Assembly (NCBI GenBank): GCA_003166855.1
Contig: PMUM01000237.1
Span: 1-39,185, forward strand
From: Acidobacteriaceae bacterium
GTDB lineage: Bacteria; Acidobacteriota; Terriglobia; Terriglobales; Acidobacteriaceae
Direction of reading: 5' to 3'
Length of the DNA stretch: 39,185 nucleotides
The translations under genes were made by a program, and so were the position numbers. Of this stretch, positions 10,305 to 39,185 are shown in pieces. How positions within the stretch are numbered: the stretch's first letter is position 1; each line of letters begins with the position of its first letter. The notes beneath the pieces are model-generated. The model did no database searches, was not told the DNA's origin, and saw only the letters and a list, made by a program, of their open reading frames with translations.

Positions 10305-10367
10305 CTGAGAACTGAGAACTGAGAACTGAGTACTGAGTACTGAGTACTGAGTACCGAGTACTGAGTA
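10305..10367. repeat. Heptamer tandem array (CTGAGAA/CTGAGTA), 9 units
   Basis: Nine consecutive 7-base units: three CTGAGAA, four CTGAGTA, one CCGAGTA and one CTGAGTA. It ends 3 bases short of the moxR stop codon. The same heptamer recurs inside the dnaE2 frame at 38678-38705. Immediately left (10278-10304) is a run of near-repeats of the type CACAGAGGACACGGAGGACACAG. Confidence 0.9.
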
Positions 10368-11386: not shown

Positions 11387-11421
11387 CAGCTGTCAGCTAT
11401 CAGCCGTCAGCTTTCAGCTAA
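11387..11421. repeat. Heptamer array CAGCTNN, 5 units (left arm)
   Basis: Five 7-base units in a row: CAGCTGT, CAGCTAT, CAGCCGT, CAGCTTT, CAGCTAA. It starts directly upstream of the moxR start codon. A second array of the reverse-complement heptamer lies 60 bases away, so the two arms can pair. Confidence 0.85.
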
Positions 11422-11481
11422 ACCCTAGATTGCGGCGCTGATCTTAAGAACGCCGCGTCTGCACAAGCTTGCTCTGGTTTT

Positions 11482-11523
11482 AGCTGACAGCTGACAGCTG
11501 ACAGCTGATAGCTGTCAGCTTAT
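11482..11523. repeat. Heptamer array AGCTGAC, 6 units (right arm)
   Basis: AGCTGAC three times, then AGCTGAT, AGCTGTC and AGCTTAT. The last unit contains the htpX stop codon (TAA, seen as TTA at 11520-11522). The unit is the reverse complement of the one at 11387-11421, so the two arrays form an interrupted inverted repeat filling the htpX-moxR gap. Confidence 0.85.
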
Positions 11524-14986: not shown

Positions 14987-15019
14987 TTTTCGTGCCTGCG
15001 TGAGAGTTCGGAGGTTGTG

Positions 15020-15116
15020 TCGTCCCTCCGGGACTCGGTTCCAATTTTTCCGACTCTTCCCGGCACTTCCGTGCCGCGCTTTCACATGCCGCTCCTTCGG
15101 GGCTGGAGTTTTGGCG
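15020..15116. repeat. Three-hairpin dispersed element, copy A (ccmF-ccmH gap)
   Basis: Three consecutive small hairpins: GTCCC-TCC-GGGAC (15022-15034), CGGCAC-TTCC-GTGCCG (15061-15076) and GCTCC-TTC-GGGGC (15091-15103). They are joined by ACTCGGTTCCAAT and CGCTTTCACAT. A second copy with almost identical spacing lies at 38470-38575. Differences fall in pairs that keep the stems. Confidence 0.75.
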
Positions 15117-29676: not shown

Positions 29677-30723
29677 TCAGTTTGGCAGAGCGACCACTCC
29701 CCATGGTCCGTCACCGACTTTTACTTTCTTCGCTACAGCCAGGCTCCCAAGGTTCACCACCGAGACATCATTGGAAGGACCGTTGGCGCTGAAGAGGGTC
29801 TTGGCGTCGGGAGAGAGGGTGATGCCCCAGGGGCGTTCCCCGATCTCCAGGGACGCCGTGATTTTGTTGGAGGCGGTATCGATGACGAAGAGCTTGTGAC
29901 CGCGTCCGGTGCTGACGTAGAGCGTGGCTCCGTCGGGTGAGAGTAGAACGGTCATGGGTTTGATGACACCGCGCTCACCTAGCGTAATGGTCTGGATGGC
30001 CTCATGCTTGACGGCATCGACTACGGTGACGGCACTATCATTTTCGGCGCTGACGTAGGCGCGGGAGCTGTCGGGCAGAAACGCCACGGAGCGGGGACGG
30101 CGTCCAACTTTGATGGTCTTGATTAGAGTGGCCGACGCGACGTCGATCGCCGAAATGGTTCCGGTGTTTTCGGAGGTCACGTAGACGAACTTGCCGTTGG
30201 GGCTTACCTTCACGCCCTCAGGCTCTTCTCCCACTGGAACAGTTTTGGTCACTTTACCGGAAGCGATGTCGACGAAGCTGGCCTTGGCGTCGTCTTCGTT
30301 GGAGACGATGATGGTGCGTCCATCGTTCGTGAGGTCGAAGTTTTCGGGATCGGAGCCGCACTGAATGGTGCGAACGAGTTTGTTCTGCTGCACGTCGAAG
30401 ACACCGATGCCGTCGGCGGTCTTGTCGGGCGGCGGAAGCTTGCTTTCATCCACGCCGGGGCCGGCGAGCGGCGAACCGCTCAGGGTCATGTAGAGAAAAT
30501 GGCGGTCCGGACTGGCGTGAATGCCACGAGGACGCTTGCCGAGAGGGACAGTGGCAATCACTTGGAGAGTGGACGCGTCGATCACACTGAGATCGCCGGA
30601 TTTTTCATTGGTGACGTAGATGCGAAAATGCGACGAGTCGCCGGCTTTTTGGGACAGGCTGGCGATTGCGCAAAGGAAGATGAGGACGAAAACCGCCAGC
30701 CACTGAGGTCTTGATTTCGACAT
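29677..30723 (-). CDS. Secreted YVTN-family beta-propeller protein
   Basis: 348 residues. The signal peptide (WLAVFVLIFLCAIASLSQ) is followed by about seven propeller blades. Each carries the YVTN-type core, for example FRIYVTNEKSGDLSVIDAST, KFVYVTSENTGTISAIDVAS, SRAYVSAENDSAVTVVDAV and TLYVSTGRGHKLFVIDTAS, with linkers of the form VGRRPRSVAFLPD. YVTN propellers are exported and bind proteins or sit in the cell surface; some accompany PQQ-dependent dehydrogenases, which fits the PQQ-like genes nearby. The start has AGGG close upstream. The gene follows GloVer paralogue 1 by 53 bases on the same strand. A decayed copy of its 5' half lies at about 32128-32335. Confidence 0.88.
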   Translation of the reverse strand: MSKSRPQWLAVFVLIFLCAIASLSQKAGDSSHFRIYVTNEKSGDLSVIDASTLQVIATVPLGKRPRGIHASPDRHFLYMTLSGSPLAGPGVDESKLPPPDKTADGIGVFDVQQNKLVRTIQCGSDPENFDLTNDGRTIIVSNEDDAKASFVDIASGKVTKTVPVGEEPEGVKVSPNGKFVYVTSENTGTISAIDVASATLIKTIKVGRRPRSVAFLPDSSRAYVSAENDSAVTVVDAVKHEAIQTITLGERGVIKPMTVLLSPDGATLYVSTGRGHKLFVIDTASNKITASLEIGERPWGITLSPDAKTLFSANGPSNDVSVVNLGSLAVAKKVKVGDGPWGVVALPN

Positions 30724-30776
30724 GCCCTATTTGAACATAATTCTGGAGCGGAGCTCCATCGGTTAGAGAATCAGGG

Positions 30777-32048
30777 CTAGGGATTCTTGATTTGCCAGAT
30801 CACGCCGCAATATAAATCGCAGCCGACCACGCCGCCGTTGATTGCGGTGCCGTAGAGAGTTCCGGTGGAGGGATCCACGGTGACGCGGCCCGTCGGGTAT
30901 CCGCCGACCGTGTTGTAGGTGAACTGGAATAGCGTCGTGAGTGTCCAAGCGCTGCCAGTTGAGGCAGGAGACAGCAGGAATACGGTTCCGTCTCCTGTGG
31001 TCTTTCCATTTTGACTGCTGGTGGTGCCGTAGAGAGCGCCGTTCGTTGGAGCCCAGGTGAGTCCGCCGACAGGGTTGACTCCACTCTGTTTGCTGAAGGT
31101 GTAGAGGATGGTCTGAGTCCAGGTGGCTTTGGCGGGCGTGAGTTCGTACACAACTCCGTCATTGTTCGCGGAGCCTCCGCCATTGGTGACACCATAGAGG
31201 TTTCCGCTGGCGTCGAACAGCAGGCTGCCGGAGGGAGTGATGCCGGATTTTGTGCTGGCTTTGAAGGAAAACAGGAGCGATTCAGTGGCCAGTTGACCGT
31301 TGGCGGCAGGTACGAACTTGAATACAGTTCCGTTGTCGAAGGCGCCGCCTAACGATGTGACTCCATACAAAGCTCCGGAAGAGTCCATCGTGAGGGGGCC
31401 GTTGGGAGTGCTGGCGTCGGCCAGATCGCCGAACGAATACAGCACGCTTTCGGTGTAGGTTCCACCGGTGGCGGGCGTGAGCTGGTAGATCACGCCGCTG
31501 TCCCAGGTACCGCCGCGGATGGTGACACCATAGATGACGCCCGCGGAATTCATGGTAAGAGTAGCGAACGCGGGAAGTCGGCCGTCAGAGTTCCCGGTGA
31601 AGGCGTACAGAGTTTGCTCGGTCCAAGCGCCGCCCAGCTTGACTGGCGGAATGAGCTTGTACACCACACCGCAGTTGCAGACGGGATCGCCGCCGGAATA
31701 GGTGGTGCCGTAGAAGGCTCCGGTGCTGTCGGTGACGAGATCAGAAATCGGGACGTATCCGCCGCTGCCATAGGGGACGAAATTGTAGAGAGTCGTCAGA
31801 GTCCATGCACCGCCGAGGACCGCGGGAGGAGCCATCTTGAAGATCGTTCCGACTCCGTAGGTGCCACCGGCGCGGGTCGTACCGTAAAGATTTCCGGAAG
31901 AGTCCTCGAGGAGAGCGCCCTGGGGCCAGAAGCTGGTGGTTTCCTTGAACGTGTAAAGCGTGCTTTCGGTTTGTGCGTTCGCGAATCCGCTGAGCGCAAG
32001 AGTCACCATCAACACGGCGTTTCTAAGAGTCGATATCCGAAAGCACAT
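30777..32048 (-). CDS. GloVer-type tandem-repeat secreted protein, paralogue 1
   Basis: 423 residues. The signal peptide (VLMVTLALSGFANA) is cleaved before QTES. The rest is a run of about eight imperfect repeats of 45-50 residues with the core D-x-x-G-x-L-Y-G-x-T-x-x-G-G (SSGNLYGTTRAGGTYGVGTI, STGAFYGTTYSGG, ASGNLYGVTNGGG, SSGALYGVTSLGGAFDNGTV). Each is followed by F/V-K-L-x-P and then a W/T-x-x-x-L-Y-x-F strand. This is the GloVer-type choice-of-anchor repeat common in Acidobacteriota; its role is unknown but extracellular. AAGGAG lies 6 bases before the ATG. Its closest relative is the next gene upstream (32362-33642), with the same length and repeat order. Confidence 0.85.
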   Translation of the reverse strand: MCFRISTLRNAVLMVTLALSGFANAQTESTLYTFKETTSFWPQGALLEDSSGNLYGTTRAGGTYGVGTIFKMAPPAVLGGAWTLTTLYNFVPYGSGGYVPISDLVTDSTGAFYGTTYSGGDPVCNCGVVYKLIPPVKLGGAWTEQTLYAFTGNSDGRLPAFATLTMNSAGVIYGVTIRGGTWDSGVIYQLTPATGGTYTESVLYSFGDLADASTPNGPLTMDSSGALYGVTSLGGAFDNGTVFKFVPAANGQLATESLLFSFKASTKSGITPSGSLLFDASGNLYGVTNGGGSANNDGVVYELTPAKATWTQTILYTFSKQSGVNPVGGLTWAPTNGALYGTTSSQNGKTTGDGTVFLLSPASTGSAWTLTTLFQFTYNTVGGYPTGRVTVDPSTGTLYGTAINGGVVGCDLYCGVIWQIKNP

Positions 32049-32092
32049 ACAGTCTCCTTGGGCAATGCCGGCTCTGCCGGAGTTTCTAACGA
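32049..32092 (-). promoter_or_regulatory. Leader hairpin of GloVer paralogue 1
   Basis: On the minus strand the leader contains CCGGC-AGA-GCCGG a few bases upstream of AAGGAG. The same hairpin, with a longer loop, occupies the same position before paralogue 2 (33643-33700). It may affect translation, or simply be a retained feature of the duplication. Confidence 0.4.
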
Positions 32093-32127
32093 CCTGGCTG
32101 CCACTAACAAACAGAACGACGCTCAGC

Positions 32128-32335
32128 TTAGGGCAGCGGGCTGGCGTTCATGCCGCGGGGGATTTTCGGGGGATCACGGTGGCGATCACTTGGAGAGTGG
32201 AGGAGCGAATCTCACAGGTCGCCGGTCTTTCACCAGGCTATGCAGATGCGAAAGTTATATCCCCAATGCTTGGGGCGGGCAGCTGCGAAAGTGATTCACG
32301 AACGCAGAGTGCCCGCCACTGATTTTGGTACCGCC
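32128..32335 (-). pseudogene. Decayed second copy of the YVTN propeller gene (5' part)
   Basis: This spacer aligns by eye with the first part of the YVTN gene (about 30500-30715) in the same orientation and order. Shared blocks on the plus strand are CTGGCGTnnATGCC, then ATCACTTGGAGAGTGGA (identical in both), TCGCCGG, AGATGCGAAA and GCCACTGA. The coding frame is broken by stops and small indels. The rest of the copy is gone, so this is the residue of a duplicated YVTN-GloVer unit. Confidence 0.7.
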
Positions 32336-32361
32336 TCAACCAATCCGCGGCACGATACTGG

Positions 32362-33642
32362 CTACGGACTTACAATCTGCCAGACCGTTCCACAGTACAA
32401 ATCGCAGCCTTCGATACCACCGTTGATCGCGGTGCCGTAGAGATCTCCAGTCTTGGTGTCGAGGGTGACAGCGCCGGTTGGGTAGCCGCCGCTCACTTTA
32501 TAGGTGAACTCGAACTCCGTCTTCTCCGTCCACGCACCGCCTTTTACAGCAGGTGGCGATAATTTGAAGACCGTTCCATCGCCCGAGGTCAGTCCGTTTT
32601 GGCTGCTGGTGGTGCCGTAAAGGGTGTTGGTGGCGTGGTTCCAAGTCAGCCCGGCCACTGGATTCGTCCCGGTCGATTTTGCAAAGGAGAAGATGATGCT
32701 CTCGGTCCAGGTGGATTTGGTCGGAGTGAGCATGTAGACCACTCCATCGCCGGTCGCGTCGCCGCCGCCGTTGGTGACACCATAGACGTCCCCACCGGAG
32801 TCGAACACCAGATTGCCGTTTGGATAACTTCCCGTTGTCGTGGAACCGCCGAAAGAATAGAGGATCGATTCAACGCCCAACTGGCCATTCGCGGGTGGAA
32901 CAAACTTGTACAGGATTCCCTGGCCGAACGCGCCGCCGTGAGAGGTAACGCCATACAGGTTTCCCTTGGAGTCCAGCAGGATCGAACCACTGGGTGTACT
33001 GCCGTCCGCCAGATCGCCGAAGGAATAGAGCACGCTCTCCGTGTAGGTCTTGCCGTTGGTGGTCGTAAGCTGGTAGAGCACGCCGGTGTCCCATGTGCCA
33101 CCCCTCGCCGTCACACCATAGAGTGCGCCTTTTGTCGTCAGAGCAAGCGACGTTGCGCCGGGAAGACGACCGTCAATGTCATTGCCGGTGAAGCCGTGGA
33201 GCACCGACTCGGTCCACGCGCCGCCTTTGACCGCGGGTGGGTTCAACTTATAGACGACTCCACAGTTGCATACGGGATCACCGCCGGAATATGTGGTTCC
33301 GTACAATGCCCCGGCCTGGTCTTTAACGAGATCGGAAATCGGCACGTATCCAGTGCCTCCATAGGGAACGAAGCTGTAGAGAGTGGTCATGGTCCAGGCT
33401 CCACCGGAAACCGCCGGAGGAGACAGTTCCATAACAGCTCCCACGCCGTACGCGCCGCCGCCGCGGGTGGTGCCATACAGATTTCCCGATCCATCTTCCA
33501 GAAGCGCGCCCTGGGGCCAGAAGTTGGTCGTCTCGCTGAACGTGTAGAGCAGATTCTCGGTCTGTGCGTTCGCGATTACGCTGAGTGCAACGAGGGTCGT
33601 AATCAGCAGAGCGTTTCTTAGACTAGGTATCCGAAAGCACAT
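32362..33642 (-). CDS. GloVer-type tandem-repeat secreted protein, paralogue 2
   Basis: 426 residues. The signal peptide (LLITTLVALSVIANA) is cleaved before QTEN, followed by the same run of about eight GloVer repeats as paralogue 1 (GSGNLYGTTRGGGAYGVGAV, QAGALYGTTYSGGDPVCNCG, TKGALYGVTARGGTWDTGVL, SKGNLYGVTSHGGAFGQGIL). Both paralogues keep the two-Cys segment DPVCNCGVVYKL and the ending GCDLYCG-x-[VI]-WQI. By eye about two thirds of positions are identical, so the duplication is not recent. AAGGAG lies before the ATG. The next gene upstream is the PQQ-like propeller; all four secreted-protein genes of this group read in the same direction. Confidence 0.85.
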   Translation of the reverse strand: MCFRIPSLRNALLITTLVALSVIANAQTENLLYTFSETTNFWPQGALLEDGSGNLYGTTRGGGAYGVGAVMELSPPAVSGGAWTMTTLYSFVPYGGTGYVPISDLVKDQAGALYGTTYSGGDPVCNCGVVYKLNPPAVKGGAWTESVLHGFTGNDIDGRLPGATSLALTTKGALYGVTARGGTWDTGVLYQLTTTNGKTYTESVLYSFGDLADGSTPSGSILLDSKGNLYGVTSHGGAFGQGILYKFVPPANGQLGVESILYSFGGSTTTGSYPNGNLVFDSGGDVYGVTNGGGDATGDGVVYMLTPTKSTWTESIIFSFAKSTGTNPVAGLTWNHATNTLYGTTSSQNGLTSGDGTVFKLSPPAVKGGAWTEKTEFEFTYKVSGGYPTGAVTLDTKTGDLYGTAINGGIEGCDLYCGTVWQIVSP

Positions 33643-33700
33643 ACTATTCTCCTTGAGGCAGTGCCGGCGTTTCTGCCGGGGGTTTGCACGGACCTGCTGG
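33643..33700 (-). promoter_or_regulatory. Leader hairpin of GloVer paralogue 2
   Basis: On the minus strand CCGGC-AGAAAC-GCCGG lies a few bases upstream of AAGGAG. The stem is the same as in the paralogue 1 leader while the loop length differs. Adjacent leader sequence (the plus-strand block GACCTG near 33690) is also shared between the two. Confidence 0.4.
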
Positions 33701-37469: not shown

Positions 37470-37576
37470 TTCACCATAGAGATACAGAGGCACAGAGGAA
37501 AGCGATAGCCACGGATCGCACTGATGTCAATTATCAATCAAGGGTTTCTCTGTGCCCTCTGCGTCTCTGTGGTGAA
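37470..37576. repeat. Large inverted repeat between convergent genes
   Basis: The arm at 37470-37503 begins TTCACCATAGAGATACAGAG and is the near reverse complement of the arm at 37543-37576. Differences are about five substitutions and two one-base indels over about 34 bases. The 39-base centre includes CACGGATCGCACTGATG. It fills the gap between the dehydrogenase and dnaE2 genes and could terminate both. Related CACAGAGG runs occur at 10278-10304. Confidence 0.75.
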
Positions 37577-37581
37577 TTGTT

Positions 37582-39185
37582 TTAGTGGAAGTCGTGCGAG
37601 ACGGTTTCGGCTTTGGTGACGAACAGGGGCAGCACGCGCTCGGCTTTCACGGAGATAACGTTGTCTTGATTTTGCAGGATGCCTTCGATGGCGAGGAAAC
37701 GCTCGCTGGCCAATAGCAGGCGGTTTTGATGAAACAGGTCGGGGGTGATGATCGCGTTGGCCACTCCGGTTTCATCTTCCAGACTTAAAAATACAAATCC
37801 TTTGGCGGTGCCCGGGCGCTGGCGGGTGATGACGCAGCCTCCGATGCGGAGGCGCTTGCCGTTGGGAATGTCGCGCAGTTCGCTGGCGCGGCGAATGCCC
37901 ATGGCATTGAGCCAGTCGCGGCGGTAGGCCATGGGATGCGGGCCGACGGTGAGTCCGGTGCCGTGGAAGTCGGCGACCAGGCGCTCTTCGTGATTCATGG
38001 GCTGCAGCGGCGAGGGCGAGTCGGGCTCGGGCTGTTGTTCGAGCAGCGGGCCAGAGTTGCGGACGGCGCGTTCGACCTGCCAGAGGGCATCGCGGCGGTG
38101 GAAGCGGAGTTTCGAGTGCGCAGAATTGTTGATTGAGTTCGCGGAGATTGGTGTTGCGTTGCCGATTGCATTCAACGCGCCGATTTCTGCCAGCGTGTTG
38201 AGTTCGTCCTTGCGCAGTTCGGGGACGCGGCGGGTGAGATCGTGAATGGAGACGAAGGGAGCGCGCAGGCGTTCGCGCACCAAGGCCTGAGCGGCTTCTT
38301 CGCGTAGGCTGCGGACGTAGCGCAGGCCCATGCGGAGGGCGATGGTGGGGTTCCCTTCGGCTCGTTCAGTATTCTTTTGAAGTTGTAGATCGGGCATCTT
38401 TCCAGGGCTTACGAGTTTTGAGCGCCACGCATTGAGCACTGAGGAAAGTTGAGATTCCTCCACCTGTGTGCCGTCCCTACGGGACTCGTTCCAATCTTCA
38501 GGTCCTTCCCCAGGACTTCCGTCCTGGGCTTTCACATTCCGTCCCTTGCGGGACTGGTTCTTTCGCCTCTCCGGGGCTTCTCCATCGCTGGTGTCTGATC
38601 CACGGCTGGAGTTTACCCTGAGCGCAGTCGAAGGGCCGTGGGCTGCATTCTGTCGCCGCTCCGCGGCTGGGTTTTCATTGAGAACTGAGAACTGGGAACT
38701 GAGAACTGTTTCCAGCGTGCAATTCCAGTCTGCCTTCGTCACATCCACCGGCAGAAGTTTCAGGCCGTGGCGTTGCGCGTCTTTGACGATCGTTGCGGGA
38801 GAATAAAATCCCATGGGCTGGTTGTTGAGCAATGCGGCGGTGAAGGCGGCCAGGTAATGGCACTTCAAATAAGCGCTGGCATAGGCGATGAGCGCGAAGC
38901 TGGCGGCGTGGGATTCGGGGAATCCGTAGAGCGCGAACGACGTGATGGAGAGAATGATTTCTTCCTGTGCTTTAAGCGGGATTCCGTTGTGCGTCATGCC
39001 GGCGCGAAGTTTCGCTTCGATTTCCTTCATTCGCGCTTGCGAGCGTTTGAAGCCCATAGCGCGGCGCAGTTCTTCGGCTTCGCCTCCGGTGAAGTTGGCG
39101 GCGATCATCGCCAGGCGCAGCAGTTGTTCCTGAAAGAGTGGAACGCCGAGCGTGCGCTTCAGCACGGGTTCGAGCGATGGGTGCG
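37582..39185 (-). CDS. dnaE2: Error-prone DNA polymerase DnaE2 (ImuC), C-terminal part, with repeat insertion
   Basis: The frame runs off the right edge; 534 residues are visible. Family blocks are LKRTLGVPLFQEQLLRLAM, GFPESHAASFALIAYASAYL, KCHYLAAFTAALLNNQPMGF, LLPVDVTKADWNCTLE, ALRMGLRYVRSLREEAA and an OB-fold region (RIGGCVITRQRPGTAKGFVF, then LSLEDETGVANAI). The C-terminus SHDFH matches the terminal SRDFH of DnaE2 proteins. DnaE2 performs translesion synthesis, usually with ImuA and ImuB; those genes are not in view. Between the WNCTLE and ALRMGLRYV blocks there are about 120 residues where relatives have roughly 10-20. That stretch (about 38356-38709) is translated repeat DNA yet stays in frame. 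The catalytic Asp residues lie outside the window. Confidence 0.92.
   Translation of the reverse strand, partial: HPSLEPVLKRTLGVPLFQEQLLRLAMIAANFTGGEAEELRRAMGFKRSQARMKEIEAKLRAGMTHNGIPLKAQEEIILSITSFALYGFPESHAASFALIAYASAYLKCHYLAAFTAALLNNQPMGFYSPATIVKDAQRHGLKLLPVDVTKADWNCTLETVLSSQFSVLNENPAAERRQNAAHGPSTALRVNSSRGSDTSDGEAPERRKNQSRKGRNVKAQDGSPGEGPEDWNESRRDGTQVEESQLSSVLNAWRSKLVSPGKMPDLQLQKNTERAEGNPTIALRMGLRYVRSLREEAAQALVRERLRAPFVSIHDLTRRVPELRKDELNTLAEIGALNAIGNATPISANSINNSAHSKLRFHRRDALWQVERAVRNSGPLLEQQPEPDSPSPLQPMNHEERLVADFHGTGLTVGPHPMAYRRDWLNAMGIRRASELRDIPNGKRLRIGGCVITRQRPGTAKGFVFLSLEDETGVANAIITPDLFHQNRLLLASERFLAIEGILQNQDNVISVKAERVLPLFVTKAETVSHDFH
38470..38575. repeat. Three-hairpin dispersed element, copy B (inside dnaE2)
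   Basis: Hairpins GTCCC-TAC-GGGAC (38473-38485), CCCAGGAC-TTCC-GTCCTGGG (38509-38528) and GTCCC-TTGC-GGGAC (38541-38554) match copy A at 15020-15116 in order, spacing and connecting sequence (ACTCGTTCCAATC and GCTTTCACATTCC). The element is read in frame as part of dnaE2. Confidence 0.75.
38615..38635. repeat. Palindromic dispersed repeat (CCCTGAGCG...TCGAAGGG type)
   Basis: ACCCTGAGCG followed by CAGTCGAAGGG. This motif is, to my knowledge, widespread as a short extragenic repeat in many bacteria. Here it lies inside the dnaE2 reading frame. Confidence 0.6.
38678..38705. repeat. Heptamer array (CTGAGAA), 4 units, inside dnaE2
   Basis: TTGAGAA, CTGAGAA, CTGGGAA and CTGAGAA in a row. It is the same unit as the intergenic array at 10305-10367. 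On the coding strand it is translated as part of TVLSSQFSVLNEN. Confidence 0.8.

Follow-up and report, generated by a model that had tools for sequence, protein, structure and literature searches.

A dnaE2 gene of an Acidobacteriaceae bacterium carries an in-frame insertion of 118 residues, here called link1, which very probably represents non-coding repeats captured by the gene. According to this reading, intergenic repeats and transposon ends insert occasionally, in-frame copies in tolerant joints of the polymerase survive, and their hairpins draw in further repeats. The gene lies at the edge of the analyzed stretch of DNA (39,185 nt; contig PMUM01000237.1 of assembly GCA_003166855.1), hereafter referred to as the window. 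In soil acidobacteria, dnaE2 appears to have repeatedly taken up repeat DNA, including apparent transposon hairpin ends, with its frame kept, yielding floppy loops derived from non-coding sequence. Three joints of this one polymerase hold a differing repeat fill across many species, and its replicative paralogue is nearly free of insertions. This constitutes a replicated natural experiment, in which one can directly test at which places proteins admit added sequence and how non-coding DNA is turned into protein.

The minus-strand frame at the window edge encodes the C-terminal 533 residues of DnaE2, including the Pfam domains finger, HhH_6, and OB. Its best NCBIfam model was the error-prone polymerase PRK05672 (418.7 bits against a cut-off of 939 bits, for a query that is a C-terminal fragment only), whereas the best replicative model scored 181.8 bits. 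The window is terminated by an N in contig C374; the coding sequence for the N-terminal portion is found at C374 39189-39394 and on contig C373. Matches at 39186 and 39189 lie in different frames, but the N separates them and thus no frameshift is implied. None was seen within the frame or across the window edge, so that the gene remains open, as the sequence-only reading had described it, rather than a frameshifted pseudogene.

The conserved DnaE2 blocks end at approximately residue 162 and restart at approximately residue 281; the borders of link1 (Table 1) are thus 12 to 14 nt from those previously proposed for an in-frame insertion of about 110 to 120 codons (38356-38711). In Taq DnaE, only 8 residues separate aligned residues 879 and 888, whose counterparts in the query are residues 154 and 284. 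An AlphaFold2 model (57 sequences; mean pLDDT of 65) assigned pLDDT values below 50 to residues 166 to 250 and 252 to 275, i.e., to the segment between the two bordering strands, and low values also to residues 344 to 358. The global model is weak (pTM of 0.37; the top Foldseek hits were DnaE structures with low TM-scores), and the structure was therefore read only locally. On this prediction link1 is probably disordered, in line with the disordered loop suggested earlier.

Table 1. Features of the dnaE2 region of the window
Feature	Position	Strand	Remarks
dnaE2, C-terminal part (finger end, HhH, OB)	37582..39183	-	Uninterrupted ORF; cut by assembly gap (N) at window edge
link1, 118-residue in-frame insertion before the HhH domain	38344..38697	-	Between predicted strands 156-160 and 280-284; alignment, structure prediction
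Heptamer array, CTGAGAA type on + strand	38679..38710	-	Spans 5' border of link1
F1a, three-hairpin element	38555..38668	-	Interrupted by F2; resembles end repeats of Y1 transposase gene on contig C436
F2, 27-nt palindromic unit, core CCTTCGACTGCGCTCAGG	38608..38634	-	Within loop of F1a hairpin; sister: 3 nt
F1b, second three-hairpin element	38468..38551	-	Resembles end repeats of Y1 transposase gene on contig C48
RF01687 (Acido-Lenti-1) match	38509..38555	+	Antisense to dnaE2; 46.2 bits, gathering score 37
link2, second variable joint, after the HhH domain	38116..38163	-	16 residues in window

Along dnaE2, link1 comprises the heptamer array, F1a with F2 inside it, F1b, and a tail without a recognized family. 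The heptamer array and the palindrome (38616-38635) had both been noted from the sequence and were found in place. The three-hairpin element noted with them is present and has an F1b-like copy elsewhere in the window (15016-15115, upstream of ccmH by the annotation of the sequence-only reading, resembling F1b-carrying joints, with an RF01687 score of 35.8, just below the cut-off of 37), but it is actually two elements, F1a and F1b. Folded as single-stranded DNA, the link1 region gave a z-score of only -1.9.

The proposed origin from dispersed repeats was borne out in the bacterium's own 6.94-Mb genome. With short flanks, link1 had at least 50 matches at an E value of ≤1, itself included (a lower bound, as 40 of 101 first-look candidates were scored). 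An 18-nt pattern of F2 occurs in 31 exact copies and 18 copies with one mismatch, compared to none in a backward-read control. F2 is enclosed by complementary arms of at least 6 pairs in 9 of 29 copies, versus 129 of 4,487 positions in a control of random genomic sites rather than of other repeats; the window copy is enclosed by a stem of 7 pairs. By eye, F2 resembles the core of another repeat family, F4.

The three-hairpin elements can be named: they correspond to end repeats of IS200-like transposase genes and to an Rfam family. F1b exceeds the gathering score of the RF01687 covariance model, and F1a, which is split by F2, reaches only 24.5 bits (38636-38668), below the cut-off. At least 62 above-cut-off matches were counted in the genome (a lower bound, as first-look candidates were partly scored), versus none in any of 14 control genomes; 140 kb of unselected DNA from the same genome contained none, where the genome average predicts approximately 1.3. 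The genome has eight matches to PF01797 (Y1 transposase). Copies of F1a flank one Y1 gene as inverted repeats (L323, 307-395 and 937-846), and copies of F1b likewise flank another (L322, 191-277 and 813-727). Both partner proteins (C436 and C48) pass the PF01797 and NF033573 cut-offs. They are not RAYTs as judged by NF047646, which gave 16.9 bits (cut-off, 80) for one of them and no match at an E value of ≤0.01 for the other.

Within the genus, 29 of 36 distinct Y1 loci had flanking inverted repeats (40 loci less 4 whose flank was too short), and 12 of 115 DnaE2 joints matched a Y1-flanking repeat at an E value of ≤1e-4. RF01687 matches were detected in 17 of 20 and 7 of 16 Y1 loci (two sets), never more than 300 nt from the Y1 gene, and formed an outward-facing pair around it at 12 loci; 12 of the 36 loci lacked a match. 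These observations suggest that the Acido-Lenti-1 "RNA" of Rfam represents a terminus of a Y1 transposable element, in which case its annotation would change. Acido-Lenti-1 was listed as probably RNA and probably not cis-regulatory in Table 1 of Weinberg et al. 2010 (PMC2864571). The available text of that paper describes it in other terms than those found here for the family that F1b matches, i.e., repeats around Y1 transposase genes and inside dnaE2, and the available text of the literature consulted states no link between Acido-Lenti-1 and a Y1 transposase. From the matched inverted repeats around Y1 genes, F1a and F1b are probably solo ends of two IS200-like elements, which the Y1 (HUH) transposases encoded in the same genome would move.

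To place the insertion among related genes, we compared three joints of DnaE2: link0 in the N-terminal part, link1 before the HhH domain, and link2 after it (link1 was measured in all loci, and link0 and link2 only in the full-length set of 63 rows). In the 63-row alignment, insertions of at least 10 residues occur at link0 in 32 rows, at link1 in 33, at link2 in 32, and at the N terminus in 29, versus at most 6 rows at any other place. Among joints of at least 30 nt in unique loci, a labeled repeat family was found in 12 of 30 (link0), 29 of 55 (link1), and 12 of 30 (link2); besides the window, 28 unique loci carry a recognized family in frame at link1. The labels are F1a, F1b, F2, F4, F5, F6, F8, and period-7 arrays of several sequences. 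F4 and F6 share a 13-nt end, and F1a and F1b both resemble RF01687, so that these labels are partly related and represent at least five kinds of repeat.

When mapped on a tree built from the conserved parts, the minimum number of link1 changes came close to that of carriers, with 7 for 8 (F1a), 3 for 4 (F1b), 8 for 8 (F6), and 14 for 15 (period-7 arrays). Gain and loss are indistinguishable in these parsimony counts, for which 36 of the 89 inner branches had been drawn open. Period-7 arrays were present in 25 of 101 joints (23 of 115 after removal of duplicates) and in none of 126 core windows, whereas periods of 5, 6, 8, and 9 each occurred in at most 1 of 101 joints. The joint DNA of relatives was also searched against 283 kb of the window's genome outside dnaE2, part of which had been chosen for repeat matches. 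At an E value of ≤1e-6, matches were obtained for 9 of 24 (link0), 18 of 55 (link1), and 0 of 22 (link2) joints, compared to 0 of 120, 1 of 140, and 0 of 110 core windows, respectively; codon-shuffled joints gave none. Nine genomes were present twice and were removed for the unique-locus family counts; they are still included in the block-recognition set, the 63-row alignment, the E ≤1e-6 test, and the count of 25 of 101 period-7 arrays. The result for link2 and the proportion of link1 joints with a recognized family (29 of 55, the rest being unexplained) speak against the capture of repeats as a general account.

The replicative polymerase served as a comparison. In 30 genomes of the same genus, DnaE1 had an internal insertion of at least 10 residues in only 2 (maximum, 17 residues), versus 28 of 30 DnaE2 loci at link1 (range, 4 to 118 residues; best matches, 26 from the genus and 4 from other genera of the family). 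In the available text of an earlier paper, DnaE2 but not DnaE1 is described as heterogeneous in length, mainly ascribed to the PHP and thumb domains, and the SOS polymerase is described as non-essential where studied (PMC3919608).

The nearest relative found (genome G004) carries the same dnaE2 on PLBY01000119 with 93% identity (401 columns). Its link1 has the same mosaic with 3 nt in place of the 27-nt F2, which suggests that F2 entered the loop of the F1a hairpin after the split or was lost in the sister. The sister's link2 contains an in-frame CACCACGGAG inverted-repeat element that is absent from the window. Between the two genomes, link1 has a dN of 0.053 and a dS of 0.053 (dN/dS of 1.01), which indicates no constraint on link1 at the peptide level. 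The conserved flanks are under strong purifying selection as judged by dN/dS ratios of 0.05 for the N-side core (dS, 0.331), 0.10 for HhH (dS, 0.373), and 0.11 for the C-terminal part (dS, 0.210); link2 gave a dN/dS of 0.70 with a dS of 1.35, from 16 codons whose sequence is not comparable. The sequence-only reading had named conservation of the segment as ordinary protein in relatives as an outcome that would refute it; the sister, which shares the segment, shows no such conservation.

The divergence of link1 itself is unexpectedly low for a passenger, i.e., approximately 5% (4 of 78 sites) compared to 21 to 37% at synonymous sites of the flanks (approximately 69 of 297; P = 0.0002), and it is also below the divergence at the fourfold sites of six genes called in a separate 8.6-kb part of the window (0.12 to 0.23). 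This is too little for a neutral passenger of that age and would be explained by recent exchange or by constraint as DNA. Gene conversion from other genomic copies is an unlikely cause, since the F1a and F1b copies in sampled DNA of the genome are only 67 to 83% identical.

These data bear on the possibility that link1 is a selected part of the protein, i.e., a disordered tether for a partner (e.g., ImuB, the clamp, or SSB) that is bound by it, kept for its length and charge, with the repeats as raw material. A location at the joint between domains beside HhH, the presence of at least 10 residues in 28 of 30 close relatives, and the low overall divergence from the sister would all suit such a tether. 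However, link1 spans 4 to 118 residues in the same set with differing content, measures at most 5 residues in 35 of 104 related loci, and evolves at the dN/dS given above, and we regard a selected tether as unlikely. The link1 peptide is probably without a selected function.

The RF01687 match raises a different possibility, in which the element is kept as nucleic acid, with an Acido-Lenti-1 RNA antisense to dnaE2 or a DNA hairpin site acting there. All 10 above-cut-off RF01687 matches in dnaE2 genes, including that of the window, lie on the antisense strand; they are not independent of one another, and such a bias is not predicted by chance capture unless the insertions share ancestry. Among 20 dnaE2 loci scored, 9 of which had been chosen as F1a or F1b carriers, a match was found in 8 of these 9 and in none of the other 11. 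The antisense strand has three terminator-like sites (two of them overlapping) where 0.8 are expected, and the low nucleotide divergence with equal dN and dS also agrees with a role as nucleic acid. Set against this, other sequence fills most related joints (F1a or F1b is present in 10 of the 55 link1 joints that reach 30 nt), Y1 transposase genes have RF01687 at their flanks, a search for promoter-like sites within the insertion gave none, and the window block around the non-coding RF01687-like copy (15059-15104) differs by 33% in the sister. A function of this kind is therefore very unlikely.

Two other causes of the orientation bias were considered. Availability of open frames is unsupported, as open readings of F1b are commoner in the opposite orientation. 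Avoidance of terminators is only suggestive, given the sites mentioned above and a T content beyond either end of RF01687 copies of 2.81 versus 2.62 (n = 21). Intergenic copies are open in 27 of 42 (F1a) and 46 of 72 (F1b) frame readings, and in-frame capture of these two families is thus easy; this does not hold for every family, F4 being open in only 4 of 18 readings.

That dnaE2 is decaying, with insertions piling up in a gene no longer needed, is hardly credible: in one other acidobacterium the dnaE2 frame shifts inside a link1 octamer array (L119:4440-4900, attributable perhaps to misassembly or to an off allele), but this is the only broken case in 105 loci with both blocks recognized (9 of the 104 unbroken loci are second copies of a genome), and the flank dN/dS of 0.05 to 0.11 and the sister with the same mosaic make a pseudogene unlikely. 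An assembly artefact, i.e., repeats misjoined into dnaE2, might be suspected from the fragmented assembly (479 contigs, 6.3% contamination, and a window that ends at an N gap) but is practically dismissed by the sister mosaic at the same place and the 28 other loci with a recognized family in frame at link1.

Capture of non-coding repeats is consistent with where the repeats lie elsewhere. The gene calls came from a home-made program based on hexamers. Unselected stretches totaling 650 kb (taken by number alone; coding fraction, 0.77) contained 27 repeat loci, of which 19 were intergenic, 2 partial, 2 genic, and 4 internal, the last all in one gene for an Lhr-type helicase. Other stretches totaling 645 kb, from contigs mostly picked for repeat matches or length (coding fraction, 0.82), contained 53 loci, of which 49 were intergenic, 2 partial, and 2 genic, and the rest of the window has 2 loci, both intergenic. 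The 30 best of the at least 62 RF01687 copies above the cut-off were assigned where possible: 20 are intergenic and 1 is partial, and the other 9 are at contig edges. Among fetched loci, intergenic or partial positions account for 57 copies of F1a, F1b, or F2 and a gene edge for 1, and internal copies were confined to dnaE2 (F1a, F1b, and F2), the Lhr-type gene (F2), a PAD_porph-family deiminase (F2), and an ORF without a Pfam match (F1a). The suggestion that repeats colonized the gene without breaking it, as in Rickettsia, holds up: the repeats are dispersed and mostly intergenic elsewhere, the F2 site is empty in the sister, and relatives hold different repeats at the same joint.

Under this preferred reading, out-of-frame insertions and those in folded parts would mostly be purged, the surface joints of an SOS polymerase would tolerate the remainder, and a resident hairpin would raise the chance of further nesting; the heptamer array sits at the link1 border.

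Repeats in DnaE2 are already known. Repetitive extragenic palindromes (REPs) in frame inside genes, many of them DNA repair genes and with DnaE2 named, were reported by Di Nocera et al. in 2013 (PMC3733652), so that the event, though real, is less unusual than the sequence-only reading supposed. Both cases involve dispersed palindromes in frame inside ORFs. Theirs are GTAG and CGTC REPs, which in genes of a single category are mostly found at differing sites, and no acidobacterium appears among the hosts given for intragenic REPs in the available text, whereas here several repeat kinds are heaped at three shared joints, which is the variant described in this study. REPs inside genes have also been described in flexible linkers (PMC6006769).

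The Rickettsia palindromic elements (RPEs) are likewise translated in frame at tolerant places (PMC2229807, PMC10969869). As described there, RPEs measure 105 to 146 bp and are spread over many genes, whereas here hairpin ends, a nested palindrome, and heptamers are heaped at one joint and have a likely transposase source. The repeats are RPE-like in behavior. Structural parallels are seen in IS200/IS605-like TnpA-Y1 elements, REPtrons, and TIRtrons, in which, as far as the available descriptions go, inverted hairpin repeats bracket a Y1 transposase and many solo copies occur; the partner transposases differ from these by the NF047646 result. By eye, they have the tyrosine motif Y---Q--HH, the signature of subclass 1.2, which is described as mostly cyanobacterial and Bacteroidetes and as generally without typical terminal structures (PMC6006769). 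Tyrosine transposases flanked by terminal repeats have been reported from acidobacteria (PMC3733652, PMC6006769). Our literature searches found none of six palindrome strings and no work combining acidobacteria, palindromic repeats, and in-frame insertion.

The genes adjoining dnaE2 may indicate that the whole mutasome operon is affected by repeats. Contig C373 carries ImuA-like and Y-family (ImuB-like) frames next to dnaE2, all below curated cut-offs (e.g., 40.6 versus 150 bits for the ImuA model). On one stretch of this contig (L172), the ImuA-like frame has, by eye, an F5-plus-F2-like stretch and the ImuB-like frame a heptamer-like stretch. In 57 ImuB-like rows, two internal places vary by at least 10 residues (11 and 25 rows), and others do so in fewer. 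A more ambitious reading would make the operon (imuA-like, imuB-like, and dnaE2) a preferred in-frame target of HUH ends, via single-stranded DNA in active SOS genes, with the heptamer and octamer arrays, whose unit length is not a multiple of three, acting as a slippage switch that turns dnaE2 off and on. We consider this combination improbable.

In-frame repeats were also seen in other genes. The Lhr-type ATP-dependent helicase (L229:3767-8548, minus strand) contains several, F2 included; many of its relatives have open frames of approximately 1,440 to 1,650 codons with match breaks at similar places. A UvrD-like helicase (L184:17736-18998, minus strand) and an AIRS-domain protein (PurL-like by eye; L197:10559-12565, minus strand), both cut by the end of the stretch or contig, seem to hold repeat-derived stretches in frame. 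In the PAD_porph-family deiminase (L355:746-1831, minus strand), F2 is in frame and the Pfam match runs through it.

Several other repeats occur in the window. An inverted repeat of the TTCACCA...GAG type, F5-like by eye, lies between convergent genes past the dnaE2 stop (37470-37580). Further heptamer arrays are located at 10305-10363 and 11387-11507, in the latter of which CAGCTGT-type units in 26-nt arms make an inverted repeat. Long imperfect direct repeats (300 nt at 74%, with a spacing of approximately 1.6 kb) at 30548-33644 suggest a tandem pair of related genes.
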